Shown: positions 3,423 to 18,895 of the stretch, one piece after another
Layout of the letters: the number at the start of each line of letters is the position of its first letter
Position numbering within the stretch: the stretch's first letter is position 1
Source: a virus
Length of the DNA: 64,000 nucleotides
Reading direction: 5' to 3' (one strand)
IMG/VR virus record: IMGVR_UViG_3300046004_000818
Span: 1-64,000 of that record
Position numbers and translations under genes: made by a program
Notes under the pieces: model-generated
Told to the model about the DNA's origin: nothing
Databases searched by the model: none
What the model saw: only the letters and a program-made list of their open reading frames with translations

Positions 3423-3565
3423 CTTCTGAACGAATGAATCTCCATGTATCTGTGGAGGTTGCTGCACAGTTGAGGCAGTTAAGCGCCTTAACTGGTATCA
3501 GCATTACCAGACTTGTACACAATGCCTTGGCTGCCTATCTGAAGGAGCAGAAACATGGAGATTAA
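3404..3565 (+). CDS. Small ribbon-helix-helix (CopG/Arc-like) protein
   Basis: This 53-residue protein has a basic N terminus, a short strand (RMNLHVSVEVAAQLRQLS) and two helices (VAAQLRQLSALTG and ITRLVHNALAAYLKEQ) in the ribbon-helix-helix order. Such proteins bind palindromic operators as dimers. It begins 26 bp after the terminase stop and its last codons overlap the start of the HNH endonuclease, so the two are co-translated. It probably represses its own promoter and the endonuclease. A similar pair is found at 18-19 kb. Confidence 0.7.
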   Translation: MKIPKPPSERMNLHVSVEVAAQLRQLSALTGISITRLVHNALAAYLKEQKHGD

Positions 3566-4064
3566 GGTTATTACCCAAGAAGTTTTATTGGAAATGTTTA
3601 CATATCTAGAAGGTGACCTGATATACAGAATCAGGCCTGCCCGTAATGTCCAAATAGGGACAATTGCTGGTTGTCCAGATAACGCAGGTTATAGAATTAT
3701 ACGTATAGCAGGTAAAGCTTATAAGGCTCACCGCCTAGTGTGGTTGTACCATACAGGTAATTGGCCTGCTGAAGGGTTTGAGTTAGATCACATAGATGAG
3801 GATAAGGCCAATAACCGTATAGATAATCTAAGAGAAGCGACCAGTGCTAAGAATAAGCTCAATGTGAGTCTGCAAACTAATAACAAATCAGGTCACAAAG
3901 GTGTACACCTGAATAGGTTGGGCACCTACTCTGCCAGTGCTAAGCTACACGGTAAGCATCATTGGTTGGGTAGTTACCCCACAGCAGAAGAGGCATCTGC
4001 AGCTTATCAAGCATTTGCTAAAGCTAATCACGGAGAATTTTACCGCGCCCCGGCTATAGTATGA
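3555..4064 (+). CDS. HNH homing endonuclease with AP2-like DNA-binding domain
   Basis: This 169-residue free-standing homing endonuclease has an HNH_3-type core, HRLVWLYHTGNWP through LDHIDEDKANNRIDNLREAT (about residues 56-97). A C-terminal AP2-like DNA-binding domain follows, with the characteristic KSGHKGVHL and WLGSYPTAEEASAAY (about residues 112-160). Such genes spread by cutting alleles that lack them. It is inserted between terminase and portal genes and is a paralogue in architecture of the HNH gene at 51.2 kb. It overlaps the small ribbon-helix-helix gene. Confidence 0.88.
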   Translation: MEIKVITQEVLLEMFTYLEGDLIYRIRPARNVQIGTIAGCPDNAGYRIIRIAGKAYKAHRLVWLYHTGNWPAEGFELDHIDEDKANNRIDNLREATSAKNKLNVSLQTNNKSGHKGVHLNRLGTYSASAKLHGKHHWLGSYPTAEEASAAYQAFAKANHGEFYRAPAIV

Positions 4065-4091
4065 TAAACTTCGACGCATTGCGTCGAAGGA
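4060..4091 (+). promoter_or_regulatory. -10-like box plus perfect palindrome overlapping the portal ribosome binding site
   Basis: TATGAT (4060-4065), a -10-like box, overlaps the endonuclease stop. It is followed by a 10-bp-arm palindrome CTTCGACGCA-T-TGCGTCGAAG at 4069-4089. The right arm runs into the Shine-Dalgarno AAGGA (4087-4091) of the portal gene at 4101. The palindrome can act as an operator in DNA or as a hairpin that restricts ribosome access in RNA. No T-run follows, so a terminator is unlikely. Confidence 0.45.
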
Positions 4092-4100
4092 ATTACTACT

Positions 4101-5570
4101 ATGAGCTTTCTAACTAAATGGTTAGGCCTTGAAGCAGAGGCTGCTACCCTCCCTCCTGTACCCTTGCCAAAGGCTCCTACAGGGGCACAGGCTGAACCTG
4201 CACACCGCACGGTAGTAGGTGGAGCTACTGCACGGTTACAGCAACCTGACAGGGCACCTCTTACTACCAATAGACTTGATGTACGGAATGCTAGCAATAC
4301 TGCTGCTGCTATCCGTACCCTGACTTACACCTCTCCTGAGATTGGTGCAGCGATCTATGCTAATTTACGTGTAGGTATCCCTGAGAACTTCTCCCTGATT
4401 GCTCGGGATATGGACGGTAAGGTTAACCCTGCTGCTACTGGCATTGCTCAGGAAATCTTGCGTCGGATTACATACCTCGGAAATGTAGATGGTACGTATG
4501 GTTCACAGGATACTATCCAATCTATCTCTGAGAGCTTAGGCAAGCAGTTGTTACAGTATGGTGCTTGTGCTGGCGAGGTAGCCCTTGATAAGGCGCGGGT
4601 TCCTGCTAGTCTGAACCCGATCTCTGTCACTACTATCAAGTGGTATGACGAGGATAAGTCTACACGCCCTGTACAGTTGCTTGGTGGTGTAGAAATTAGC
4701 TTGGATATTCCTACCTTTGTTTATGTCAGTCTGGATCAGGACTTGATGGAAGCTTACTCTAGCTCTCCATTGGAATCTGCTATCCAACCTGTGTTGCAAG
4801 ATATAGAGTTTAATAACGATGTGCGCAGGGCCTTGAAACGTGCAGTTCTTCCGCGCTTGGTTGCCACTATCGACTCAGAAGCTATTAAGAAATCTACGCC
4901 ACCTGACATTCTAAACGATAGCGATAAGTTTGCTGCTTACAAACAGCAGATCATTGGTGCTGTACAGCAGGTAGTTAACGGTGCTAACCCAGAAGATGCT
5001 TTCATCAGCTTCTCCGAGATTAGTTATGCCTATGTTAATGGTGGCCAAGACCCATCAGCTATTATCGAACGTATTCAGAAGGTCTTGAACACGAAGCTGC
5101 AGACAGGGACTAAGACTCTGCCTGTGGTACTTGGCTACGGTGGTGGAGCTAATGCTGCCTCTGCTGAGTCATTGCTGTTCATCAAGTCTGCTAACATGGT
5201 TCGGGTCAAGCTGAATGAGTTCTATAGTCGCATTCTGACTATTGCTACCCGCTTGATGGGTCAGGATTGCTACGTCGAGTTTAAGTATGCTCAAATAGAC
5301 TTACGCCCTGACGCCGAACTAGAAGCTTACAAAGCTATGAAGCAATCTCGTATGCTGGAACTACTGTCTTTCGGCTTGATGACCGACGAAGAAGTAGCCA
5401 TTGAACTGACTGGGAACCTGCCGCCGCAGGGCTACAAGCCCTTGATGGGTACGATGTTCAGGGTAGGGGCCGGTGCATCAGCAGGGGCCGGACAACCCGG
5501 CACAGCGGCTTCTGGCACTTCCAATATGAGTCAGGGAAAGCCTGAAACTCCAGCAGCACCTAAGTCTTGA
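4101..5570 (+). CDS. Portal protein
   Basis: This 489-residue protein forms the dodecameric ring through which DNA enters the head and to which the tail joins. Its position after the large terminase, its length, a long central helical region (about residues 240-410) and a low-complexity Ala/Gly/Pro C terminus match phage portal proteins. The motif EYFxR-like wing elements are not obvious to me, so the family subtype is left open. Translation starts at an ATG with an AAGGA site nine bases upstream. The C-terminal GTMFRVGAGASAGAGQPG tail is probably disordered. Confidence 0.85.
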   Translation: MSFLTKWLGLEAEAATLPPVPLPKAPTGAQAEPAHRTVVGGATARLQQPDRAPLTTNRLDVRNASNTAAAIRTLTYTSPEIGAAIYANLRVGIPENFSLIARDMDGKVNPAATGIAQEILRRITYLGNVDGTYGSQDTIQSISESLGKQLLQYGACAGEVALDKARVPASLNPISVTTIKWYDEDKSTRPVQLLGGVEISLDIPTFVYVSLDQDLMEAYSSSPLESAIQPVLQDIEFNNDVRRALKRAVLPRLVATIDSEAIKKSTPPDILNDSDKFAAYKQQIIGAVQQVVNGANPEDAFISFSEISYAYVNGGQDPSAIIERIQKVLNTKLQTGTKTLPVVLGYGGGANAASAESLLFIKSANMVRVKLNEFYSRILTIATRLMGQDCYVEFKYAQIDLRPDAELEAYKAMKQSRMLELLSFGLMTDEEVAIELTGNLPPQGYKPLMGTMFRVGAGASAGAGQPGTAASGTSNMSQGKPETPAAPKS

Positions 5571-5630: not shown

Positions 5631-5894
5631 GTGCCCAATCCAAACTATCAAGCTACCGGGAAAGACTGCCCGATTATGGAGACAGCAGTAGTTGTACCTA
5701 GTGACTCTACTGACATTACTGATCTACCAAGGGCTATCTGGGTTGGTGTAGGTGGTGACGTTACCTTGATGGCTGCTGCTGATCAGACCTCTCGGGTCTT
5801 CAAGAACGTAGCTAGCGGTACTCTGCTACCTATCCGCGCTAGACGTATCTATAACACAGGTACATCTGCTTCTTCAATCATAGCCTGCTATTAG
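5631..5894 (+). CDS. Head spike base protein, RcGTA Rcc01079/GhsA-like (copy 1)
   Basis: This 87-residue protein resembles the spike base family first known from the Rhodobacter gene transfer agent. The family-type features are LPRAIWVGVGGDVTLM in the middle, FKNVASGTLLPIRARRIY, and a terminal TGTSASSIIACY. The base protein anchors fibres to the capsid vertices. It starts with GTG and is followed one base later by a large fibre gene, as in the agent's ghsA-ghsB pair. It is about 85% identical (74 of 87 residues by my alignment) to the copy at 9690. Confidence 0.82.
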   Translation: MPNPNYQATGKDCPIMETAVVVPSDSTDITDLPRAIWVGVGGDVTLMAAADQTSRVFKNVASGTLLPIRARRIYNTGTSASSIIACY

Positions 5895-5895
5895 T

Positions 5896-8800
5896 ATGTT
5901 CGGCGTAGGTCCTACCCTTCACAATACGGGGAAGTCGCCGCAACAGCAGTGCTTGTCCCTGCTTGATAAGTACTGCAAGTCTCCTGCTGGTATCTATGAT
6001 CCGGTTAAGGGGTATATGCAGTTACCTGCTAATCTGGTAACGTGGTCGGGTGATCTAACTGATGCATCCTACACTAAGGTGCAGCTAGTAGCCAGCAAAC
6101 CTACTGACATAGCACCACCTAAGCAAGGTATCACACCTATCAAGCTTACTGCTACAAGTGGGGCTAATGGTAGTTCATGGAGATTCTATAAAGGACCAGC
6201 TACTACTGCTGATACGAACTACACAGCAGCGATTTACTATAAGCCGGGAAGCGGTGCGCCTTACGTACTATTTAACTCAGATAGTAACGGTAGTGAGGGA
6301 GTATTCTTTAACGCCACTACAGGTGCTTACCTAAGCCGAATTGGTACTGCCTACTCTGGCGAGTCACTTGCTGTAGCTAATGGTTGGTACATGTTAGTAG
6401 TGAACTTTAGAGCTACACTTGCAGACTCTAATCACAACATGTTTTGGTGCCTTACTAACAGGACTAATACTGCTGCTAATGGTGCTGACCCCGGTTTTGT
6501 TGGTGGTGAGTATGCTTATTTTGGTGGTTATGGTGTATTTGAGGGTACCCTTACTGCTGCACAGATTCACGCTATGGGTGGCATCCCTTGGACTAGGGAG
6601 ACTGCTAGTGTTGCTTTGACACTTGGCCCTCGGCTAGAGGTTAATGGTGAGTTTGATTCTGACACTGGTTGGACAAAAGGTGCTGGCATTAGCATAGCTA
6701 ATGGCGGCGCAACCTTTAATAACGGTGCTGGTTATCCAAACTTAACACAGAACTATGCTTATACGTCTGGGAAATCGTACCAGTACGATATAACGGTTTC
6801 AGCTTGGTTAGCAGGTGCAGCGGCTGTATTTACAACTAAGACTGGATATACTCCACATCCAAATAAAGTTACAGGTGTTGGAACCTTCAGCGATGTATTT
6901 GTTGCTGATGGCACATATAACCTAATGGGTGTTCAGCATGGAAGTCCCGGTGGTACAAATAGCTACACATTTGACAGTATCTCTGTCCGAGAACTCATCT
7001 CCACACCTTGCCCTCTCTACACCGATGCACACGCCTATATACCGGGCAGTTACTCACTTGTAACTCCTGCAAACTTGCTAAAGTGGAGCAGGGATTTTGC
7101 TAATGGGACTTGGAGTTCTAGCTCAGCCGCGCTATTGAGGACTGCAACTGAACTTGTAGAGATAGCTACTTCTGATTATCACCGTGTAGGTTACTCCTTG
7201 GCAGGGATACCAACTACCCAACGTACATTTGCCTTTGAGGTCAAACCTGCAGGTCGCAACTACGCTAGGGGTTGGAGTTGGGGTGGTGCTGACTCTGGAC
7301 AACAAACATTTACTCTGATAGGTGCTGGTAGTTCTACAGGTTCATTGCCAACAAGTATAGCCAAGCAAGCTGATGGTTGGTATATGTGTACTTTCTCTGT
7401 ACCTCTCAATCAAGCTGGAAATGTAGTCTTTGGACCTTCCGATGGTGTAGTTGGTGGTACTGATGCTTACATGGGTATAGCTGGGTTAGGTCTGTCCTGC
7501 AGAGGTGCAGGTTTATTTGAAGGTAACTATACTGCTGATCAGTTAATAGCTATGGGTGGTATACCTTGGACTAGAGAAACTCCTAACGTATCCCTAAGCT
7601 TGGGTAACAACCTTATTACCAATAGCGAGTTCAAAAACAAAGGTAGCGGTTGGACTATAGCGAATGGTTCTGTTAACTTTGATTCTGGCAAGGCTGTGTT
7701 TGGTGCTAACAGTACACAGTTCTACCAGTACCTATCTACTCTTACTGTCAATAAGCAGTACCAGTTTGATTGGGAGCAAAGCACTGCAGGCTTGATCTAC
7801 ATGAATGTCGGTGGTGGTTGGGTAGTCCCCGCACATACTGGCACCGGACCAAAGTCGTACGTTGCTACTGCTGATGCGGCCTTACAGGTCTATGTGTACC
7901 TTACTACAGGTGGAGTAGCTGGAGACTGGATTGACAACTTGACAGTTAGGGAACTCATCTCCACCCCCTGTCCAATCTACGCACCCACCTCATCTCTAGG
8001 CCTTGCATCTAACAACTTCAATGCCACTATGGGGAATACTGGCTATACGCCAGTCGAAGGCGAAGCCCGACTTGTCTATGATGCACTCAGCAAGGTAGGG
8101 CCAGAGTTAGTACCTAACGTAGGCAAACCGTTCGTTAACACTGCAGGGTGGGCTGGCAATCAGGCCACAATAGCTGTAGTAGGTGGAAAGATACGGGTTA
8201 CTGCTACAGTTGCTAGTGGCGGCTATATCTCTGGATATGTAAACCTCACAGGTCTTACACCCGGAGCGACCTTGCAGGTTACTGGTATGCACACTGCAGG
8301 TACTGCTACTACCAACTATATTGCTACGTATTTGCTTAGTGCTGGTTCTGGTAATGGTGCGTCAACTCCTGTCCTAGCTAGTGGTGCTGCAGGTAGTTAC
8401 TCACAAGTAGTAGATGCCGATGGCTCTATTTGGATCGCAGTTGCTGGAACCTCTACAGGCATTGGCTCCTACTATGACATAGATTTCTTGTCTGTAAAAG
8501 AAATCATAGGTATCCATGCTACCTCTGCTAATGTGTACACACGGCGTGGACTTGTTAATCAGACAACCAATAGCGATGATGTGTCTGGTGGCATATCTCC
8601 TACTGGTCTGACTTTTGTTACTAATTCGGTACATAGCCCACTAACAGGTACTAATACTGCAGATGCGATGAGGGAAACAGTAGATGCTAGCCGACACACA
8701 CTGGTAAACTCAGCAGTGTTAGCTACAGGTACTTATAACACTGTGGCTGTGATTGCCAAACAGGGGGTAGGTACTAGGTGTCTACAGACTGCTAATGGGG

Positions 8801-9651
8801 GCGGTGGTTGGGCTAACTTCAATCTGCAGACTGGTGTAGTCGGCAGTCGAGGTGGGCCATATACCCACACCTCAGATATACTTGCACTTGGGGATGGTTG
8901 GCACCTATGTACTTTTGTAGCTATACCAGCCGCAGGAGCTTATAACCGCTGGCTATCCATAGTTACTGGAGCTAACTCTGCATGGTTGGAATCCTACACA
9001 GGTGACGGTACAAGCTCTATTATCATCGCTCGTCAAGCCTTGCTAGACGGTTACTACACACCTAAAGAGATTATGGATGCTGGTGGCTTGCCACTGACTA
9101 CTACGGTAGCGGCTAGCAATCCTAGTGCTGGTAGATACGTTTGGTCAATGCTCACTCTGACAGGCATGAAACTTGACAGACTACCATTCACCTACTTGGA
9201 TGACTTCGTTGTAGTAGCTTGTTTCAGAGCTAGCAAACCCGGAGCTTGGCTAACTGTATTTTCTCTTACAGGTGTTAATGGTATAGCACGGATGCAGCTT
9301 TATGCCTCTTCAGGAAACTATGCTAGCCTCTACATGTCAGGAGATACTAACCTAGGTGGTGGTGGCTATATCCATAGTACGGTCAACTGCACTGATAAGC
9401 TGGTGATCGCTACTGTAGTCAAACGTGGTGGCACAGCTTACCTACGAGTAAATGGTGTCCAAGCAGGTAGTGCTGTCATACCTGTATCTGTAGCCACCTT
9501 TACAGGTTCTTCGATAGGCGAGTTGCATAGCGGTAGTGACAACTTCTGGGGTTACATAGCCTCAGTTATCCCCATCAAAGCAACAGTCCCTGATAGCGAG
9601 CTTTTAGCCATAGAACGTGCTGTAGGCCAGCCCCTAGGAATTTATTTTTAA
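5896..9651 (+). CDS. Head spike fibre protein (copy 1), carbohydrate-binding modules
   Basis: This 1,251-residue protein probably forms the fibre on the spike base and binds host surface glycans. Its N terminus (MFGVGP, then SPAGIYDPVKGYMQLPANL) is shared with copy 2 and resembles phage head-spike fibre domains. Modules with PANLxxWSRDF, IPWTRET and LISTPCPxY signatures recur. Between them are beta-sandwich segments of the VNGEFDSDTGW type seen in carbohydrate-binding modules. The last ~190 residues look like a concanavalin-A/LamG-type lectin domain. It abuts the base gene (one-base gap) and is probably co-translated with it. Confidence 0.75.
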   Translation: MFGVGPTLHNTGKSPQQQCLSLLDKYCKSPAGIYDPVKGYMQLPANLVTWSGDLTDASYTKVQLVASKPTDIAPPKQGITPIKLTATSGANGSSWRFYKGPATTADTNYTAAIYYKPGSGAPYVLFNSDSNGSEGVFFNATTGAYLSRIGTAYSGESLAVANGWYMLVVNFRATLADSNHNMFWCLTNRTNTAANGADPGFVGGEYAYFGGYGVFEGTLTAAQIHAMGGIPWTRETASVALTLGPRLEVNGEFDSDTGWTKGAGISIANGGATFNNGAGYPNLTQNYAYTSGKSYQYDITVSAWLAGAAAVFTTKTGYTPHPNKVTGVGTFSDVFVADGTYNLMGVQHGSPGGTNSYTFDSISVRELISTPCPLYTDAHAYIPGSYSLVTPANLLKWSRDFANGTWSSSSAALLRTATELVEIATSDYHRVGYSLAGIPTTQRTFAFEVKPAGRNYARGWSWGGADSGQQTFTLIGAGSSTGSLPTSIAKQADGWYMCTFSVPLNQAGNVVFGPSDGVVGGTDAYMGIAGLGLSCRGAGLFEGNYTADQLIAMGGIPWTRETPNVSLSLGNNLITNSEFKNKGSGWTIANGSVNFDSGKAVFGANSTQFYQYLSTLTVNKQYQFDWEQSTAGLIYMNVGGGWVVPAHTGTGPKSYVATADAALQVYVYLTTGGVAGDWIDNLTVRELISTPCPIYAPTSSLGLASNNFNATMGNTGYTPVEGEARLVYDALSKVGPELVPNVGKPFVNTAGWAGNQATIAVVGGKIRVTATVASGGYISGYVNLTGLTPGATLQVTGMHTAGTATTNYIATYLLSAGSGNGASTPVLASGAAGSYSQVVDADGSIWIAVAGTSTGIGSYYDIDFLSVKEIIGIHATSANVYTRRGLVNQTTNSDDVSGGISPTGLTFVTNSVHSPLTGTNTADAMRETVDASRHTLVNSAVLATGTYNTVAVIAKQGVGTRCLQTANGGGGWANFNLQTGVVGSRGGPYTHTSDILALGDGWHLCTFVAIPAAGAYNRWLSIVTGANSAWLESYTGDGTSSIIIARQALLDGYYTPKEIMDAGGLPLTTTVAASNPSAGRYVWSMLTLTGMKLDRLPFTYLDDFVVVACFRASKPGAWLTVFSLTGVNGIARMQLYASSGNYASLYMSGDTNLGGGGYIHSTVNCTDKLVIATVVKRGGTAYLRVNGVQAGSAVIPVSVATFTGSSIGELHSGSDNFWGYIASVIPIKATVPDSELLAIERAVGQPLGIYF

Positions 9652-9689
9652 CCTGTAGTTTTATGCTACACTTCTAAACGGAGGTTTTC

Positions 9690-9953
9690 ATGCCAAATCC
9701 CAATCATCAGGCCACAGGAAAAGACTGTCCAATCATGGAGACAGCAGTCGTTTCTCCTAGCGATTCAACCGATATACCAGACCTGCCTAGGGCTATATGG
9801 ATCGGCGTAGGCGGTGACATAACCTTGATGGCTGCAGGAGATACTACTTCTCGCCTATTCAAGAATGTCAGTAGCGGTACCTTGCTGCCTATTCGTGCTA
9901 GACGCATCTATAGCACAGGTACCACAGCCCAATCACTCATCGCTTGTTACTAA
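9690..9953 (+). CDS. Head spike base protein, RcGTA Rcc01079/GhsA-like (copy 2)
   Basis: This 87-residue duplicate of the protein at 5631 is identical at 74 of 87 positions, with changes spread along the chain and mostly conservative. It has an ATG start preceded by a good GGAGG site, whereas copy 1 uses GTG. Two base proteins would let two fibre types be mounted on one capsid, either mixed at vertices or as alternatives. The stop TAA is followed by one base and then the second fibre ATG, exactly the spacing of copy 1, which shows the whole base-fibre unit was duplicated. Confidence 0.82.
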   Translation: MPNPNHQATGKDCPIMETAVVSPSDSTDIPDLPRAIWIGVGGDITLMAAGDTTSRLFKNVSSGTLLPIRARRIYSTGTTAQSLIACY

Positions 9954-9954
9954 T

Positions 9955-12900
9955 ATGTTCGGCGTAGGTCCTAGCTTACATGGTGTTGGTAAAACACTTT
10001 CACAATCCTTCTCGGGCTTGTTGGGGAGGTATGCCAAATCACCTGCTGGTATCTACGACCCGATTAAGGGGTATCTGCAGAAGCCTGCTAATTTAGCAGT
10101 CTATAGTAGGGACTTTAGCAACACAGCTTGGAACAAGGTTAATGTAAGTGTAGTCGGTAACACTGTCTCGTTCTCTGGTCCTACTGTACCTAAGCGGATC
10201 ACACAGACCTTCGCTGGTTCTACCAATGGGCATACTACTGTATTCCAAGTACGTCCACTGACACAGCGATACTTCCAGCTTATCAATAACGGTGATGCAG
10301 TATGCTTCGCCAACTTTGACCTAGTGGCAGGTACACTTGGCACCTTTGGTACTGGTACAGTTTCCTCAATCGCCAATGTTGGTGATGGGTCTTACCTGAT
10401 TGCTGCTACTTTTACAGCAGCCGCTATATCTCAGGTCTGCTCTATCTATCCATCTAACAGTGCCTCCGATGGCTTTGCACCGGGCAATACCAGTACAGGC
10501 AGTTTTGAATTGCTAGCTGGTGGCACCTTCAACGGTAGCTTCACTGCTGCTCAGATTCTTGCTATGGGTGGCATCCCTTGGACTATGGAAACCGCTTCTG
10601 TATCCTTGAGTCTAGGTGAAGAAAGGGTAGTAAATGGCGACTTCTCTAGTGGTTTAGCTGGATGGACAACTGAACCTTCAGCTTCCGTGGTGAATGGAGC
10701 ACTTGTAGCAACCTCTAGCTCGGCCTCTAATATTATAGCCTCAAGATTTATTGCTATCCCTGAAGGCAAGCCTTACTACTTGACTGCCAATGCTATTGCT
10801 GTTAATAGCAGTACTGCTATCAGACTTAACGGGACAGTGGTGTCTGGTGGCTATAAGCAAGCAGGATACTGGTCTAACGTCTTTACTGCAGGAAATCAGT
10901 GGGTGCTAGAGGTTGCTGGTGGAGCAGGGAGCAGTTCTGCGACTATTGACAACATCTCCATCAGAGAACTCATCTCCACTCCCTGCCCCATCTATACCAA
11001 TGCTCACGCCTACGTACCCGGCGCGGGTGTTATGGTGACTCCTGCCAATCTGCTTACTTGGAGTAGGGATTTTAATAACGGTGTATGGTCACATTTCCGT
11101 TCATCTAAGGTAGGTGTGACAGTAATAGATGGCATACCCTGTATGGAGGTACTCCTTAACGAGTATGAGGCTTCTGTAGAGCGTAACCATGCAGCTATAG
11201 GTGTAGTCCAGACCTTGCAATTCATGGTGCGATCTAAGGTACCTGATATTAAATTAGGCATTCATGCTGGCAATACAGATTTTTCACCAGCCTTTGACGT
11301 TACAACAACTTGGACTACCATTACTTACGTAACCAAAGGTACAGCTAATGTAGATAGCATGTCCTTGCGGAACAAGGACTCAGTGCCTAGGTATGTCTAT
11401 ATAGCTGCTGCGGGTGCCTTCTTAGGTACCTACACAGCCGCCCAACTAGCTGCTATGGGTGGTATCCCTTGGACTATGGAAACACCTTCCGTATCCTTGA
11501 GCCTTGGTGATGAAAGAGTAGTGAATGGCGACTTCTCCAATGGTCTGACAGGTTGGGCCAAAACCTCGCCTTACTCAATCATCGAGGTAGTTAATAACGT
11601 AGCTAATATTACTACTCTGCCGGGTGCTAACTGGACGGAAGGCCTTCAGCAGTATGTCAATGACTTGACTACTGGTAAGACCTACTATGCTAGCTATAAT
11701 CAGACAAGCTCTGGTCGTATGCGTATGTCCCTTACTGAGGGTCAGGTGTATTCCAATGTGGCTACCTACCTAAAGTTTACTGCTTTAGGCTCTATCACAA
11801 CAGCTAACTTCTTTTTAGACGCGAATACAGCAGGAGCTGTAGGTACACTCGACAACATCTCCATCAGAGAACTCATCTCCACACCCTGCCCGGTCTACGT
11901 GTCTTCCAACGCACTTGGACTTGCAGCAAACAACTATGCTGCCAATACAGGTGGAAGCTATACGGTAGTGGATAGTGCTAGTGGGTTGGTGATTGATGGG
12001 GTTGCTAATACAGGTCCTGAATTACTTACAGGTGCTTTGTCTACCTATGGTAGCTCTACCATAGCTGTGTCCGGTGATATAATTACAATAACCTCTACCG
12101 GAGCAGGTACCAGTGGAGTTGTTTGGAACGATGTGTCCATAAGCAGCACTAGCAGGTATCGTTTCGCACTTGAGATTGTGGCTAACCCACAAAATAACAA
12201 TGTGCAAGTGTATATTAACACACTTGCTCAAGAGGCTAATTTAACAGCGGCTACCGTTGGGCCAAAAGTTTGCTATCCGGTGGCTGTCGCATCTGGTTTG
12301 AGCACCTCACATCCGGTAATCACTTGTCCATCTATGCCTACTGGCAACAGTGTGTCGATACGGCTAGTATCGGTTAAGGAACTGATAGGTATCAATGCTT
12401 CCCAAGCAACTGCTGGCAATATGCCAACTATCGCTAGGGGCTTGGTAAATAGACTTGCTAATTCACATACTCCAGCTAATCTTTCAAAAACTGACTGTAC
12501 TGTTAGTGGATCAACTTTGACCACCACCGTTGCTGCTAACCCAAACGTGCAGAATCCAGTTCTACCTAGTGAGCCTTATACAGGTATACCTATAACACAA
12601 GTAGCCGAACTATCGGCTGGCAATCAATCTGTGATGGCTCTACAGATGTTTGTAAATGGTGGTGTTGGTGGCAGTTGGGTCACTACAGATGCATTTATAG
12701 TGTCTGGTCCCGGTAGTGTGACATTTACGTCAGCTATAGCTATCGTAACTGGACTATCTAGCACTCAACGAACAGTAGTAGCTTTAGTTGGAAGTTCGTC
12801 AGCCACCAGCGGTAATCTACATGCCTATGTGAAGGGCCGCTTAACTGGTAGTCAAATAGGTGATACAGGTAACTGTCATGCTAGTGCTTGTTTTATTGGT

Positions 12901-13521
12901 GCCTACACTGCTGCCCAAATCATAGCAATGGGTGGTATCCCAACCACTACAACCGTAGCAGCTAGCAACCCCAACACCGGACCCTATAGCTGGCAATTCA
13001 TGGACAACACCGATGTACTCAAGCTTGATCGTGTACCTTATCAATCTACAGATGATTACGCTAATGTGGTAGTCTGCAAACTTGAGAAGGTGCCGGGAGC
13101 TAGTAAATATCCATATGCTTTTGCTGTAAAGGGTGACACCTATCGTGGGGCTGGTTCTATCGTTTTTGACAATGCAGGTAAGCCTATGGCTACTTGGAAT
13201 GATGGTACTGCTTCAGTCAGTCTAACTCATAGCATAGCAGTCTTTGGTTGGGTAGTGCTAACAGCTTGGAAAGTTGGTAATACCAAAGTACTTCGGGTTA
13301 ATGGTCTTCAGTCTGCTGTAGATACAACAGCTTTAGCACCTACTGTATTAGAGGCTGCGTACATCGGTCATAGCGGAGGTGTAGACGCTTCTACCATCGA
13401 AGTAAACTACGAGTTCCCCGGACTTGTCGGTAAAGTGATATCAGAGCAAGGTACAATAACAGCCGATGAACTACTGCTTATAGAGCGAAGCCTAGGCTCT
13501 GAGTACGGTGTACACTTTTAG
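9955..13521 (+). CDS. Head spike fibre protein (copy 2), carbohydrate-binding modules
   Basis: This 1,188-residue paralogue of the fibre at 5896 shares its conserved N terminus (MFGVGPSLHGVGK, SPAGIYDPIKGYLQKPANL), the recurring AMGGIPWTMET and LISTPCPxY module borders, and a lectin-like C-terminal domain ending LIERSLGSEYGVHF. The inner modules differ strongly, as expected if each copy recognises another glycan. An upstream in-frame ATG at 9865 exists but lies inside the base gene. ATG 9955, matching copy 1, is chosen. Segments with VVNGDFSSGLAGW resemble CBM4/9-type beta-sandwiches. Confidence 0.75.
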   Translation: MFGVGPSLHGVGKTLSQSFSGLLGRYAKSPAGIYDPIKGYLQKPANLAVYSRDFSNTAWNKVNVSVVGNTVSFSGPTVPKRITQTFAGSTNGHTTVFQVRPLTQRYFQLINNGDAVCFANFDLVAGTLGTFGTGTVSSIANVGDGSYLIAATFTAAAISQVCSIYPSNSASDGFAPGNTSTGSFELLAGGTFNGSFTAAQILAMGGIPWTMETASVSLSLGEERVVNGDFSSGLAGWTTEPSASVVNGALVATSSSASNIIASRFIAIPEGKPYYLTANAIAVNSSTAIRLNGTVVSGGYKQAGYWSNVFTAGNQWVLEVAGGAGSSSATIDNISIRELISTPCPIYTNAHAYVPGAGVMVTPANLLTWSRDFNNGVWSHFRSSKVGVTVIDGIPCMEVLLNEYEASVERNHAAIGVVQTLQFMVRSKVPDIKLGIHAGNTDFSPAFDVTTTWTTITYVTKGTANVDSMSLRNKDSVPRYVYIAAAGAFLGTYTAAQLAAMGGIPWTMETPSVSLSLGDERVVNGDFSNGLTGWAKTSPYSIIEVVNNVANITTLPGANWTEGLQQYVNDLTTGKTYYASYNQTSSGRMRMSLTEGQVYSNVATYLKFTALGSITTANFFLDANTAGAVGTLDNISIRELISTPCPVYVSSNALGLAANNYAANTGGSYTVVDSASGLVIDGVANTGPELLTGALSTYGSSTIAVSGDIITITSTGAGTSGVVWNDVSISSTSRYRFALEIVANPQNNNVQVYINTLAQEANLTAATVGPKVCYPVAVASGLSTSHPVITCPSMPTGNSVSIRLVSVKELIGINASQATAGNMPTIARGLVNRLANSHTPANLSKTDCTVSGSTLTTTVAANPNVQNPVLPSEPYTGIPITQVAELSAGNQSVMALQMFVNGGVGGSWVTTDAFIVSGPGSVTFTSAIAIVTGLSSTQRTVVALVGSSSATSGNLHAYVKGRLTGSQIGDTGNCHASACFIGAYTAAQIIAMGGIPTTTTVAASNPNTGPYSWQFMDNTDVLKLDRVPYQSTDDYANVVVCKLEKVPGASKYPYAFAVKGDTYRGAGSIVFDNAGKPMATWNDGTASVSLTHSIAVFGWVVLTAWKVGNTKVLRVNGLQSAVDTTALAPTVLEAAYIGHSGGVDASTIEVNYEFPGLVGKVISEQGTITADELLLIERSLGSEYGVHF

Positions 13522-13529
13522 GAGCTAAC

Positions 13530-13592
13530 ATGAGTCCCCTAGCAATCTGGATTATGATCCTCCATTGGGAGTGGTGGAAGTGCGGCATATAG
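13530..13592 (+). CDS. Tiny 20-residue hydrophobic peptide
   Basis: A 20-codon reading frame (MSPLAIWIMILHWEWWKCGI) has a strong AGGAG site six bases before its ATG and sits directly after the second fibre gene. It overlaps the next gene's start region, so it may be a leader peptide that couples translation rather than a functional protein. Tryptophan-rich and hydrophobic, it could also be a tiny membrane peptide. Only the ribosome binding site supports it. Confidence 0.35.
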   Translation: MSPLAIWIMILHWEWWKCGI

Positions 13593-13774
13593 GTTGGAAG
13601 CTGACTCTCCGATGGATGCGTATGCCCGACCAACCTTTCGTACACTGGTGCTCTGAAGATGATGGGCTAGTTAGCAAAGATGGTGTGCTTAACCATCACC
13701 GTATAAAGTTATGGAACGATACTCCTACAGGACTTGAAATAGTCTCCATTATTAAACTCTGGGCAGAAGAATGA
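13580..13774 (+). CDS. Hypothetical protein, first of a paralogous pair
   Basis: This 64-residue soluble protein is of unknown function. It aligns with the next gene: VRHIGWKLTLRW against MKHIGWRLEVRR at the N terminus and SIIKLWAEE against SITKFWAEE at the C terminus, so the two are tandem duplicates. GTG 13580 is chosen because it aligns with the ATG of the paralogue and has GGAG nearby. TTG 13565 and GTG 13571/13574 are alternatives. The stop overlaps the next start (ATGA). Confidence 0.55.
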   Translation: MRHIGWKLTLRWMRMPDQPFVHWCSEDDGLVSKDGVLNHHRIKLWNDTPTGLEIVSIIKLWAEE

Positions 13775-13980
13775 AGCATATAGGTTGGAGACTTGAAGTA
13801 CGAAGGGAGCAGGAACACATCTGCACTTTTGTATTCTTTTATGATCGTGGTGTAGGGTGCCCTATTAACGATGATGGGACATGGAACATAGAGTTTAATT
13901 GGATTCTCTATGGTGATGATTTCCCACCGTGGAAGCAGACAGAGATTGGCTCTATCACTAAATTCTGGGCAGAAGAATGA
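13771..13980 (+). CDS. Hypothetical protein, second of a paralogous pair
   Basis: This 69-residue protein is related to its upstream neighbour over its whole length, with aromatic-rich middle segments and the same SITKFWAEE end. No family is recognised. It overlaps both neighbours by ATGA junctions (13771-13774 and 13977-13980), so four small genes form one translationally coupled chain between the fibre and the capsid protease genes. Confidence 0.6.
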   Translation: MKHIGWRLEVRREQEHICTFVFFYDRGVGCPINDDGTWNIEFNWILYGDDFPPWKQTEIGSITKFWAEE

Positions 13981-14108
13981 AAACCATCTTGGTTATACTC
14001 CTGACAGCTAATCTATTAGCATGTGCCCCTACTACTTTCGTTCTAGGTAGAGAAACCCCACCACCTGCCGGGTGTGTAGAAGCAAGGAAACGTGGACATG
14101 AATGCTGA
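13977..14108 (+). CDS. Small lipoprotein
   Basis: This 43-residue product begins MKTILVILLTANLLACAPTT, a charged start, a hydrophobic stretch and a lipobox LLAC with cysteine 16. The mature part is only 28 residues with a PPP segment and two more cysteines. Signal peptidase II processing and lipid anchoring are predicted. It overlaps the start of the transglutaminase-like gene. A role in superinfection exclusion is one possibility for phage lipoproteins expressed on their own, but nothing here proves it. Confidence 0.65.
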   Translation: MKTILVILLTANLLACAPTTFVLGRETPPPAGCVEARKRGHEC

Positions 14109-14481
14109 TGTAGCCATCGTATTTAACGAAGCCAAATCTAAGTTTGGCTATGCTGATGACTCTACCACCTTTGGACAAACAGAGTATTGGGCCACTCACG
14201 AAGAGATGATGGCAGCGGCTGTAGCTGGTAAGGTAAAGGGTGATTGCGATGATTTCGCTGAACTCTGCGTACATCCCCTTAGAGAGAAGGGTTTACCTGC
14301 TAGGTTCATACTATGCCTTACCGAGACAAAGGAAGCACACCTTGTAGCTGAAGTTGACGGTATCATTTTGGATAACAGGCAGGTGTACCCAACACCCATA
14401 GACTTCTTGCCATACACATGGTTAGCATGTTCCGGTGAAAAACCCGAACAACCTTGGCACATAATTATAGGAGTCTCATAA
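14098..14481 (+). CDS. Transglutaminase-like cysteine peptidase (BTLCP family)
   Basis: This 127-residue papain/transglutaminase-fold protein shows the triad regions KGDCDDFAELCVHPL (catalytic Cys), AHLVAEVDG (His) and ILDNR (Asp) in the order of bacterial transglutaminase-like cysteine proteinases. It could cleave or crosslink virion or cell-wall peptides. ATG 14098 is preferred over GTG 14092 because AAGGA lies nine bases upstream. It overlaps the small lipoprotein gene and precedes the capsid protease, which suggests a virion or maturation role. Confidence 0.8.
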   Translation: MNADVAIVFNEAKSKFGYADDSTTFGQTEYWATHEEMMAAAVAGKVKGDCDDFAELCVHPLREKGLPARFILCLTETKEAHLVAEVDGIILDNRQVYPTPIDFLPYTWLACSGEKPEQPWHIIIGVS

Positions 14482-14533: not shown

Positions 14534-16027
14534 ATGACTACAAATCTCTGGTTGGGTAATCAGCACTCTTATGAGGCTGTCCTTGAAGCTAAGGCAAACG
14601 CCCTTGCTAAGTACGGTGACAAAGAAGGTGAAGCACCTGAACCTAAACTGCTCAATGTGCAAAGCAATGTGGGCATCATTGATATCAAGGGTAGTCTCAT
14701 TAACGGTAACGCTGGCTGGCTGAGCTACTTTGGTGTTACTGGCTACGGAGATATTCGTGACTCTCTTGTTGCTGCTATCCAGAACCCAGAAGTATCAGCT
14801 ATTCTCCTGAACATAGATTCAGGTGGTGGTGCTGTAGCTGGTGTACACGAGACTGCCCAACTGATCAGCCGTGTTGACAAGATTAAGCCTGTCATTGCTT
14901 ACAACGGTGGTACAGAAGCATCTGCTGCTCTCTGGCTAGGTTCTTCTGCACGTACAGCCTATGCTGCAGAGACTGCCCTCACTGGTTCTCTCGGTATCAT
15001 CATGGTACATGCAGAGCGTTCAAAGCAGTTGGAAGACGATGGTATCAAGGTTACTGTCATTCGTGCAGGAACTGAGAAGGCCTTGGCTAACCCATACGAA
15101 CCACTGACAGACAATGCTAAGGCTGCCCTAGAAGAGAAAGCTCAGGCTATGTACGATATCTTCTTGGGCCATGTGGCTAGTATGCGTGGCCTGTCAGATA
15201 GCGTGGCAGATTCCAAGTTTGGACAAGGCCGTGAGTTCGTAGGTAAGGCCGCTGTCACCGCAGGACTTGTAGATTCTGTGGGTACATTTGAGGATGCCTA
15301 CACAAAGGCAGCTTCACTTGGCAGCAAGATCGCCAGCAAAAACCAAGCTAAAGCTGCTGTTAATCGCCCTGCTAACCTGCTCAAGGCTGAAAACTTTGGC
15401 ACTTTATCGGCCAGTCTGCCACAAGTCTTAGAAGGACAGCTAGAAGCTGTGGCATCTATGGTAGATAATACCGCATCTACCGAAGGAACATCCATGCCGA
15501 AACCCTTGACCCAAGAACAGCTAGTCGCTATGGCGGCTGGTGTAACACTTGAAGCTACCGTAGCTGAAACTGTTAATGCCGAAGCCGTTACTGAAACCAG
15601 TAACGAAGGCTCTACTGAAGCGCCTACTGACAAACCTGCTGAAGCTGCAGCGGCTGCTCCTTCTGAGCTAGTCACCTACTTGCAGGTCCAAGTCACTGCG
15701 CTGCAAGCTGAATCGCTTGAATTTCGCATGGCAGCAAAGACTGCTGCTGACGCCCTGACTGCAGCTACTACAAATCTGGAAGCTCTGGCTGGTATTGCAC
15801 GTAATAGCATTCGCTCCATGACTATCGCCCTTGGCGGTAAAGCAGAAGCTGTTGAGGCTATGTCTGTGGGCGATGTGGTAGCTGAACATAGCCGCGTAGC
15901 TGCTGTGTTCACTGACAAGTTCAAAGTGGGGGCGGTTGCGGCGACCAACACTCTTGAGGATAAGCCTGTTGTGAAAGCAACGGTTAATCCACTCTTTGCA
16001 TACGCCGCAAAATCTCTTTCCAAATAA
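14534..16027 (+). CDS. Capsid maturation protease (peptidase S49) with C-terminal scaffold
   Basis: This 497-residue protein is built like lambda gpC. Residues 45-260 are an SppA/ClpP-fold S49 protease with NIDSGGGAVAG (93-103), the probable nucleophile Ser130 in GGTEASAALWLG, TGSLGIIMVHAE, and the likely general-base Lys182 in RAGTEKALANPYEPLT. An Ala-rich linker and a coiled, acidic C-terminal scaffold domain follow (about 321-497). The protease cleaves the scaffold and itself during head assembly. The scaffold portion is also predicted to be made separately from an internal start. Confidence 0.9.
   Translation: MTTNLWLGNQHSYEAVLEAKANALAKYGDKEGEAPEPKLLNVQSNVGIIDIKGSLINGNAGWLSYFGVTGYGDIRDSLVAAIQNPEVSAILLNIDSGGGAVAGVHETAQLISRVDKIKPVIAYNGGTEASAALWLGSSARTAYAAETALTGSLGIIMVHAERSKQLEDDGIKVTVIRAGTEKALANPYEPLTDNAKAALEEKAQAMYDIFLGHVASMRGLSDSVADSKFGQGREFVGKAAVTAGLVDSVGTFEDAYTKAASLGSKIASKNQAKAAVNRPANLLKAENFGTLSASLPQVLEGQLEAVASMVDNTASTEGTSMPKPLTQEQLVAMAAGVTLEATVAETVNAEAVTETSNEGSTEAPTDKPAEAAAAAPSELVTYLQVQVTALQAESLEFRMAAKTAADALTAATTNLEALAGIARNSIRSMTIALGGKAEAVEAMSVGDVVAEHSRVAAVFTDKFKVGAVAATNTLEDKPVVKATVNPLFAYAAKSLSK
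15494..16027 (+). CDS. Nested scaffold protein from an internal in-frame start (Nu3-like)
   Basis: Within the protease gene an in-frame ATG (MPKPLTQEQLVAMAAG) is preceded by AAGGA six bases upstream, a strong internal ribosome binding site. The 177-residue product would be the C-terminal scaffold alone: Ala/Glu/Thr-rich, then helical (LQVQVTALQAESLEFRMAAK). Lambda C/Nu3 uses exactly this arrangement to make more scaffold than protease. The start position at the domain border supports the reading. Confidence 0.7.
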   Translation: MPKPLTQEQLVAMAAGVTLEATVAETVNAEAVTETSNEGSTEAPTDKPAEAAAAAPSELVTYLQVQVTALQAESLEFRMAAKTAADALTAATTNLEALAGIARNSIRSMTIALGGKAEAVEAMSVGDVVAEHSRVAAVFTDKFKVGAVAATNTLEDKPVVKATVNPLFAYAAKSLSK

Positions 16028-16566: not shown

Positions 16567-17778
16567 ATGACTTTCGCCTACATCGACAAAACTGGTGCAC
16601 AGCAACAAGTGGATATCCCTGCTGAAGAGATGTTCTCTGGTGCACTCAAGGCTAACCTGAGTCCAGTGGCCTTCATTAACCAGAAGTTCGCTGATGCTGA
16701 CCTGTCTATCGGCCCTGCTTTCAAGCAGATGCAAGCTGGTATGGGCATCTGCTCTCCCGGCACGGACAATCCCTATGGCCTGAAGTCTACCAGCATGGCT
16801 AACCTGCTGGATGGTACTGGCGGTTTTGGTGCTAACACGCAGCAAAACACCACACCTTTCGGTACTTCGTCCCGCGCCTTCACGATCATCTCGGTGATCG
16901 ATGCCATTGAATCGGCTATGGCTAAGGACCGTACTACGGATGCTGACAACTTCTACAGCATGGTCGGTGCTACCCTCGCCTTGAACAGCGAGCATTTTGA
17001 GCAGCCTGTGGTGGACTACGGCACTGTCGGTGGACCTGAGTCTGCCAAGTCACAGCGCGTTGTGCAAGGTGCTAACCCACCGAAGATGGCGTTCTTCAAG
17101 ACTGCTGACCGTATCCGCCGCATCGGATCGTGGACAGTTGGTATGGAGTGGACTCAGCAAGCTCTCCGCGCTACGACCTTGGATTTCGTGACCATGACAA
17201 TGGCTCGGTATCTGCAGGTTGAGCGTGATGAACGTGCTTACCGCTACGTGGCTGATCTGTATACTGGTAACGGTGATCTGGTGGTTGGTGCAGTCTCTGC
17301 CGTGACTACCACTTCTCTGGACTCTGCCGCTACTGGTGGTGTGGTTACCCACAAGTCTTGGATCAAGTTCTTGGCCCGTAACCGTAAGTATCGCAAGATC
17401 ACCCATTGCATCTGCGATATCGACACCTACCTGAAGATCGAGTCCCGTACTGGTCGCCCCGGTTCTAACAACTACGATCCTACCCTGTCGCGTATCGACC
17501 CACAACTGGTTTCTCCGAACCAGACGTTCGGTGGTGATGTGAAGTGGATCATCGTTGACTCGGCTGCTGAAGGTGGTCCGGTTCCTGCAAACACTGTCTA
17601 CGCCATTGATGCCAGCACTGCCATCACCTTGGTGACCAACAGCAATGCGGCCTACAGCGCGGTGGAAGCCTTCGCTCTCAAGCGCACCGAAGCCATGCGC
17701 CTTGACTGGTCCGAAGAAGTGTTCCGCACTTTCGGTGACAGCGATCTGCGCTCCTTCGACGTTCTGACGATTGCTTAA
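16567..17778 (+). CDS. Major capsid protein
   Basis: This 403-residue protein is preceded by a strong AGGAG site and uses the most G/C-biased codons in the window. It follows protease, scaffold and decoration genes. The segments DRIRRIGSWTVGMEWTQQAL and YLQVERDERAYRYVADLYTG resemble the spine helix region of HK97-fold capsid proteins. It would form the icosahedral shell. No long N-terminal delta domain is seen, consistent with a separate scaffold protein. Confidence 0.82.
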   Translation: MTFAYIDKTGAQQQVDIPAEEMFSGALKANLSPVAFINQKFADADLSIGPAFKQMQAGMGICSPGTDNPYGLKSTSMANLLDGTGGFGANTQQNTTPFGTSSRAFTIISVIDAIESAMAKDRTTDADNFYSMVGATLALNSEHFEQPVVDYGTVGGPESAKSQRVVQGANPPKMAFFKTADRIRRIGSWTVGMEWTQQALRATTLDFVTMTMARYLQVERDERAYRYVADLYTGNGDLVVGAVSAVTTTSLDSAATGGVVTHKSWIKFLARNRKYRKITHCICDIDTYLKIESRTGRPGSNNYDPTLSRIDPQLVSPNQTFGGDVKWIIVDSAAEGGPVPANTVYAIDASTAITLVTNSNAAYSAVEAFALKRTEAMRLDWSEEVFRTFGDSDLRSFDVLTIA

Positions 17779-18052: not shown

Positions 18053-18895
18053 TTATGCTTCACATATGGCTACAGGTAGCTTAACACCTCTGTATGTATC
18101 TGTTATGTGTCTTCTAACTGTATCATAAGATATACCAAGGTAGGCTGCTGCAGCTTTGGCTGTTTTAAAGACTCTAGGCAGAGTGCTTTCACTAGTCCAC
18201 ACTAATACTTCTATACTATTACCTGGCAGATTCCCTAACATATCTAACCTAGTTACTCCGGTCTTCATCTTGCTAAGCTTATCTTTGGTCTCTGCAGTGT
18301 GCCTTCGTCCAGAGCTTGTCACGCGCAACTTCTCAATATGATCAGAAGTAAGCTGTCTTCCAGTATTCGCAACCCTAAGTTTCTCTCTAGTAGCACTTGA
18401 TGTAAGTCTTCCAGTGTTAGCTTTACTAATCTTTTTACGGCACTCTTCTGTTATAACTTTACCTAAACTGGCTTTACTTATGTTGCGTTTATGCTCTAGG
18501 CTTAAGGCTTTTCCTAACCTTTGCTGCCTGAGCCTTTCTTTCGTAAGTTCAGTATGCCTATACCCTATAGTGCCTTCACCACCTTCTGTAAGGTTATACC
18601 CCATTGGTGCAAGACTTCCTCTAGCAGCTATGAGCCTCTTTTCTTCCTCTCTTATGTCTGACTTACTATTATTTCCCTCTAGTAGTATAGCATAGCTAAA
18701 GGCTTCAGGCCCATATGTTGCCAAAGCCCTATGAAGATATGTATTAGCCCTATGCTTTCCTATGTGCTCCAACAGTCTTTTGTAAATGTTAGAGCTTTGA
18801 CCTATGTACTCTTTACCACTCTGATTGTGGCGTACACAGTACACTCCAGTGATAGCGTGCCTAGGGTCTAAATCTAACAAGTTATACCATATCAT
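18053..18895 (-). CDS. GIY-YIG homing endonuclease with NUMOD repeats
   Basis: This 280-residue free-standing homing endonuclease is inserted on the opposite strand between head genes. The N-terminal GIY-YIG domain has TGVYCVRHNQSGKEYIGQSS and the downstream Arg/Glu region (RLLEHIGKHR; REEEKRLI). The middle carries at least four NUMOD3-like repeats with (R)RKKISKANTGR-type cores, and the C terminus ends in a helix-turn-helix-like KTAKAAAAYLGISYDTVRRH. The first codons overlap the upstream ribbon-helix-helix gene (ATGA), indicating coupled translation. Confidence 0.9.
   Translation of the reverse strand: MIWYNLLDLDPRHAITGVYCVRHNQSGKEYIGQSSNIYKRLLEHIGKHRANTYLHRALATYGPEAFSYAILLEGNNSKSDIREEEKRLIAARGSLAPMGYNLTEGGEGTIGYRHTELTKERLRQQRLGKALSLEHKRNISKASLGKVITEECRKKISKANTGRLTSSATREKLRVANTGRQLTSDHIEKLRVTSSGRRHTAETKDKLSKMKTGVTRLDMLGNLPGNSIEVLVWTSESTLPRVFKTAKAAAAYLGISYDTVRRHITDTYRGVKLPVAICEA

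Follow-up and report, generated by a model that had tools for sequence, protein, structure and literature searches.

We analyzed two predicted head-spike cassettes, each a short base gene followed by a long fiber gene, that lie head to tail in the IMG/VR virus record IMGVR_UViG_3300046004_000818. The stretch analyzed, here called the window, is bases 1–64,000 of this record, which has 82,971 bases in total. Its left arm is a siphovirus head–tail gene train that opens with the small terminase, TerL, an HNH gene, the portal, the two base–fiber cassettes, small genes, and the S49 protease, and continues with a small virion protein, the major capsid protein (MCP), connectors, tail proteins, the tape measure, and a lambda-J-like central tail fiber. 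On the minus strand, the right arm encodes DNA polymerase, primase, and helicase. The tape measure protein, the J-like tail fiber, and the S49 head protease bear out the description of a lambda-like siphovirus given in an earlier note on this DNA. The record itself was rejected as a gene transfer agent (GTA), as such agents are host-encoded and lack replication genes of their own. The genes that define the locus are as follows (aa, amino acids).

4101–5570, plus strand: portal protein, left border of the slot that holds the cassettes (phrog_3753, E 1.1e-54)
5631–5894, plus strand: spike base 1, 87 aa, GTG start, Rcc01079 family (NF048002, E 2.7e-23, 82.0 bits)
5896–9651, plus strand: spike fiber 1, 1251 aa, with three NF048003 GTA_spike_fiber domains (whole protein E 4.1e-29)
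9690–9953, plus strand: spike base 2, 87 aa, ATG start (NF048002, E 8.9e-23, 80.4 bits)
9955–13521, plus strand: spike fiber 2, 1188 aa, colinear with fiber 1 (NF048003, E 6.3e-11)
14534–16027, plus strand: S49 head maturation protease, right border of the slot (phrog_53, E 4.5e-70; PF01343)
16567–17778, plus strand: MCP, presumed seat of the spikes (phrog_3922, E 1e-14; 86% identical in the sister phage L070)

Two head-spike bases of the RcGTA type

The cassettes span 5631–9651 and 9690–13521, exactly where the earlier note had placed its head-to-tail pair of base–fiber units, and each fiber gene does start one base after the base stop, as that note had read it (a longer open reading frame (ORF) call, 9865–13521, merely uses an upstream ATG within base 2). 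Both bases score far above the 28-bit cut-off of NF048002, the curated NCBIfam equivalog model of the RCAP_Rcc01079 family. A single-sequence search of the Protein Data Bank (PDB) with base 1 retrieved Rcc01079, the head spike base of RcGTA (6tb9, E 2.7e-8), and the spike base of phage Carin1 (8cjz, E 1e-4). The AlphaFold model of base 1 (pLDDT 88) led to the same two proteins: they were the only Foldseek matches with E < 1e-3 (6.5e-6 for 6tb9), and VIA-align gave Z 13.1 for RcGTA and Z 12.0 for Carin1, with everything else at or below 4.7. The superposition on 6tb9 covers 84 residues, with TM scores of 0.81/0.84. The earlier note had named the lack of a structural match to the RcGTA spike base as the outcome that would speak against its assignment; the comparison returned this strong match instead. 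By sequence, and for base 1 also by predicted structure, the window bases are thus RcGTA-type head-spike bases with a jelly-roll fold.

The two bases are identical at 73 of 87 residues (84%, or the previously claimed 85% when both starts are read as Met) and at 74% of nucleotides. Their differences are distributed over the three codon positions as 13/6/49, and the corresponding rates are dN ~0.10, dS ~2.4–3.1 (saturated), and dN/dS ~0.04. Purifying selection maintains both bases, which are old copies. The likeness of the two cassettes far exceeds chance. With 26% of nucleotides differing between the copies, an assembly artefact was rejected; a pseudogene second copy was rejected because base 2 is under purifying selection and both fibers are open.

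The conservation between the two bases is most complete toward the N-terminus, where residues 7–21 are identical and only position 6 differs before residue 22. This stretch lies within the N-terminal part that faces the capsid in RcGTA, where the bases are seated on the penton MCPs via their N-termini (PMC7296036). An acidic residue at base position 12 (Glu12 in RcGTA) is conserved in the window, as Asp12, and in one viral clade, but not across the family. A PDB search with the window MCP gave no match, so the RcGTA contact residue Asp210 could not be mapped onto it.

Fiber modules and the peptide predicted to couple fiber to base

Against the NF048003 cut-off of 36 bits, fiber 1 scores 102.4 bits, with domains in the modules S1, S2, and S3, and fiber 2 scores 43.1 bits, with one domain in S1. 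Both fibers run in the same order of anchor, S1, C1, S2, C2, C3, S3, and a LamG-like end. The modules are listed below; z is the score of pairwise similarity between modules.

5896–6033, plus strand: fiber 1 N-terminal anchor MFGVGPTLH and conserved N segment, residues 1–46 (30/46 identical to fiber 2)
6034–6540, plus strand: fiber 1 module S1, GTA_spike_fiber (NF048003; core against fiber 2 z 2.2, not significant)
6541–6627, plus strand: fiber 1 junction J1, TAAQIHAMGGIPWTRETASVALTLG (21/28 aa identical to J1 of fiber 2)
6628–6969, plus strand: fiber 1 module C1, putative CBM4/9-like beta sandwich (z 7.9 to its own C2, z 4.6 to C1 of fiber 2)
7099–7515, plus strand: fiber 1 module S2 core (NF048003 at 7072–7578; z 0.0 against S2 of fiber 2)
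7606–7929, plus strand: fiber 1 module C2 (z 7.4 against C2 of fiber 2)
8560–9045, plus strand: fiber 1 module S3 core (NF048003 at 8557–9012; z 0.4 against S3 of fiber 2)
9130–9648, plus strand: fiber 1 C-terminal LamG/ConA-like domain (PF13385, E 4.9e-5; z 23 to fiber 2)
9955–10092, plus strand: fiber 2 anchor MFGVGPSLH and N segment (from comparison with fiber 1 and motif enrichment)
10096–10530, plus strand: fiber 2 module S1 core, GTA_spike_fiber (NF048003 at 10090–10473)
10948–11073, plus strand: fiber 2 junction J2, ISIRELISTPCPIYTNAHAYVPG...TPANLLTWSRDF (32/42 aa identical to J2 of fiber 1)
11515–11847, plus strand: fiber 2 module C2, CBM_4_9-like (PF02018, E 1.8e-4)
12979–13518, plus strand: fiber 2 C-terminal lectin-like domain (z 23 to the LamG-like end of fiber 1)

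The two fibers had been said to share their terminal domains and to differ inside, which holds, and they share in addition the conserved junctions and the module order throughout. The N segment (46 aa) is 65% identical between them, the junctions are 52–80% identical in amino acids, and J1 to J3 have kept 73–82% of nucleotides, comparable to the bases. The C-terminal domain is clearly homologous, C2 is still homologous, and C1 is marginal (z 4.6 in 64 comparisons). On the other hand, the S cores at equal positions and C3 (z 0.9) show no significant positional similarity between the fibers. Since a modestly diverged chassis surrounds cores that can no longer be aligned, module replacement is preferred over even drift; the pattern fits S cores replaced as modules, although the cores may instead have diverged very fast.

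Could the second cassette then be mainly a recombination reservoir, which stores alternative S and C modules for exchange at the conserved junctions, with the virion displaying mostly one spike? The junctions are alike across positions as well as between fibers (repeat families D2–D6) while the S cores are unalignable, and the likeness of C1 to C2 within a fiber (z 7.9 and ~8.4) is at least as great as that of C1 or C2 between fibers, which would suit a reservoir. However, the strong purifying selection on base 2 would be needless in a mere module store, and no allele series was found, so that we consider a reservoir unlikely.

What the cores bind can be approached through weak domain matches. 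The best match of a C module to PF02018 (CBM family 4/9), seen in one C module only, is 22.3 bits against a gathering score of 25.9, so the C modules are best described as putatively CBM4/9-like, short of family membership; likewise, the match of the fiber 1 end to PF13385 (Laminin_G_3) reaches 23.9 bits against the Pfam cut-off of 27.6. PDB sequence searches with both fibers and a search of the phages collection with fiber 1 gave no match. By analogy with RcGTA, the fibers would probably bind surface polysaccharide.

The link between fiber and base can be read more directly. In RcGTA, one fiber per base pentamer is held by the fiber's N-terminal peptide IALGLGLGL, in which five hydrophobic residues occupy five base pockets (PMC7296036). 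Both window anchors, MFGVGP[TS]LH, resemble this alternating hydrophobic–Gly peptide, with hydrophobic residues at positions 2, 4, and 8. When the first 25 residues were searched for a hydrophobic–Gly–hydrophobic–Gly run, it occurred in 19 of 42 distinct ORFs located after a spike base in the retrieved loci, compared with 40/1220 (3.3%) of other ORFs (Fisher p 5e-16, not corrected for relatedness). Because the motif is enriched after spike bases, base and fiber form a matched pair by a sequence rule, and this rule is simple enough to find base-coupled fibers that are now annotated as hypothetical proteins or tail fibers. Taken together, the NF048002 and NF048003 matches, the likeness of the base to 6tb9 in sequence and fold, the anchor peptide, and the portal-side position bear out the claim of an RcGTA-type head-spike base and fiber.

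Two spikes proposed for one capsid: function, slot, and origin

We propose that each cassette would build a single spike on the capsid. Five copies of the 87-aa jelly-roll base would form a pentamer on a five-fold vertex of the capsid, and one fiber would be plugged into this pentamer by its N-terminal anchor, as in RcGTA, projecting in a row its S (GTA_spike_fiber), CBM4/9-like, and LamG-like domains, which would grip surface polysaccharide. Because base residues 7–21 are identical and the anchors are near-identical, both bases would be expected to compete for the same vertices and either fiber to fit either base, that is, bases and anchors would be nearly interchangeable. Virions would then carry a random mix of spikes with two glycan specificities, and the mixture would help them attach reversibly to variable capsules until the tail takes over. 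We put the probability that the two spikes are interchangeable and compete for shared vertices, giving one virion two glycan specificities, at roughly 0.6; vertex occupancy, the mixing and co-display of spikes, and glycan binding are steps that we infer. More tentatively, and at a little short of an even chance, the two kinds of vertex spike would share an interchangeable chassis on which the glycan-binding cores were independently replaced, making a two-specificity head that is re-equipped by module swaps at conserved junctions. The conserved junctions around unalignable cores suggest such swapping of specificities indirectly.

Several observations weigh against the proposal of mixed vertex spikes. 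Position 6 of the anchor is Pro, not Leu, and the acidic cation-binding residue of the RcGTA base is not universal in the family. The AlphaFold model of one S–C unit of the fiber is poor (pLDDT 52), so glycan binding rests on the weak domain matches and the RcGTA precedent. The Foldseek list obtained with that model, rich in CBM22/CBM16 and glycoside hydrolase entries, was given no weight. Furthermore, the base family is filed under 'tail fiber protein' in PHROGs, in one relative (L020) the base is preceded by a tail-fiber gene, so that its location is not always beside head genes, and a sister phage has a GP4-type fiber I protein (PF23140) in the same slot. These last three points would suit base–fiber pairs that are tail- or neck-associated instead of sitting on capsid vertices. 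We regard that arrangement as very improbable, as both solved relatives with a strong fold match, RcGTA and Carin1, come from capsid structures, and the cassettes are flanked by the portal and the head protease, with the tape measure gene of the tail ~10 kb farther downstream. A portal or connector gene precedes the base in several other phages as well.

The two cassettes might also be expressed alternately, one per infection or host, through regulation or a switch. A short region with a plausible ribosome-binding site (gagg/ggagg) precedes each of the two base genes, which would allow this. However, the promoter-like matches in the region (12 against 19.6 expected from shuffling) and the terminator-like matches (12 against 9.8) do not stand out above expectation, and both cassettes lie on one strand in a single gene train. 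A limited search found no switch element, and there was no invertase among the genes checked, although no systematic search for invertases or inverted repeats was made. Alternate expression is quite improbable, and co-display of the two spikes remains the preferred account.

A tandem base–fiber pair was seen in this record only, within the collections searched. All 29 IMG/VR contigs with a spike base have a single base gene (many of these contigs are fragments), and the 79 records of the phages collection (72 of them Flavobacterium phages) and the 24 plasmids with a base carry it in one place each. In three overlapping genome samples, an RcGTA-type base was matched in 11/385, 8/40, and 26/398 genomes; in the few cellular genomes with two base matches, the two were far apart, lay on separate contigs, or were one hit split in two, and in one case they formed a side-by-side diverged pair without a fiber. 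No second tandem base–fiber pair was found in the 29 viral contigs, the 79 phage records, the 24 plasmids, or the ~40 cellular genomes with a base. A literature search, with most subscription papers outside its reach, found no paper on Carin1 or on duplicated head-spike cassettes. Two other base arrangements were observed along the way. At 3896–4386 of a bacterial genome locus (L106), two diverged spike-base ORFs of 86 and 77 aa overlap by ATGA with no fiber between them, and at 7998–11321 of a Sphingomonas genome locus (L058), one 1107-aa ORF opens with the spike-base domain and continues with a part that is glycoside-hydrolase-like by eye, a putative base–enzyme fusion.

The slot itself varies among relatives. 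The sister phages L052, L053, and L070 have portals 77–78% identical to that of the window, and they hold an unrelated five-gene set in the portal–protease gap; L070 thus lacks spikes despite its 86% identical MCP. Another set, which includes the GP4-type fiber protein, fills the gap in L054, and in L056 the gap holds nothing. Because relatives hold unrelated sets or none there, the portal–protease gap is an exchange site for virion accessory genes.

This bears on how the second cassette arose. The tandem arrangement reported by the earlier note stands, but its reading as a duplication cannot be told apart from the acquisition of a cassette, because substitutions at synonymous sites have reached saturation and three viral scans and one genome scan yielded no third base that is closer. 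We give even odds to acquisition, in which a related phage would have supplied the second cassette to this slot, with the function unchanged. The divergence of the bases (84% aa, saturated dS) is like that between whole sister phages (MCP 86%), the slot carries different modules in relatives, and the fiber cores are unalignable, all of which would fit an acquisition. On the other side, the searches turned up no donor whose base is closer (the best relatives are below 50%), and base composition is similar in both cassettes.

Other genes near the slot were noted. An HNH endonuclease gene (3555–4064) sits between TerL and the portal, and a GIY-YIG-type homing endonuclease gene (18053–18895, minus strand) follows the MCP. 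Just downstream of the spikes, two overlapping 69-aa ORFs (13565–13774 and 13771–13980) with like ends (KHIGW..., ...FWAEE) form a second small tandem duplication without a match in Pfam. They are followed by a 43-aa ORF (13977–14108) with a lipoprotein-like start, MKTILVILLTANLLACAPTT, which resembles an outer-membrane spanin by eye only, and by a transglutaminase-like cysteine proteinase (14092–14481; PF06035 Peptidase_C93, E 8.9e-7, above the cut-off) that lies between the spikes and the head protease.

Comparison with known head spikes

Head spikes are an understudied first-contact device. The RcGTA particle carries spikes on eleven vertices; they bind the capsule and provide a reversible hold until the tail acts (PMC7296036). 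One kind of spike serves RcGTA for one capsule. If our proposal is true, capsid appendages would diversify receptor range as branched tail fibers do, and the two-cassette phage would offer a natural test of free mixing between bases and fibers.

RcGTA (Rcc01079/GhsA base, Rcc01080/GhsB fiber) is like the window in its jelly-roll base of ~85 aa with the same fold, in the fiber gene directly downstream of the base, in the alternating hydrophobic N-terminal anchor, and in the GTA_spike_fiber domain. It differs in having one pair with a 325-aa fiber, whereas the window has two pairs whose much longer fibers carry three S modules with CBM-like and LamG-like domains, and belongs to a full phage that carries replication genes of its own. 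The mature capsid spike base of Carin1, which matches the window base in sequence and fold at only 26–29% identity, places such a base on the capsid of a real phage. The 881-aa fiber of the uncultivated phage L072 has the same S/C/LamG chassis (28–41% identity in aligned stretches), lies just downstream of the portal, and overlaps the preceding small gene; unlike in the window, that small partner of 113 aa does not belong to the RcGTA-type bases, and the MFGVGP anchor is absent from the fiber. The capsid turrets of HFTV1, an archaeal virus whose turret base forms a hexamer seated on hexamers of the MCP, are likened here by description and not by homology: they too combine a base with a glycan-binding head on the capsid and make the first reversible contact (PMC12494034, PMC9973310).

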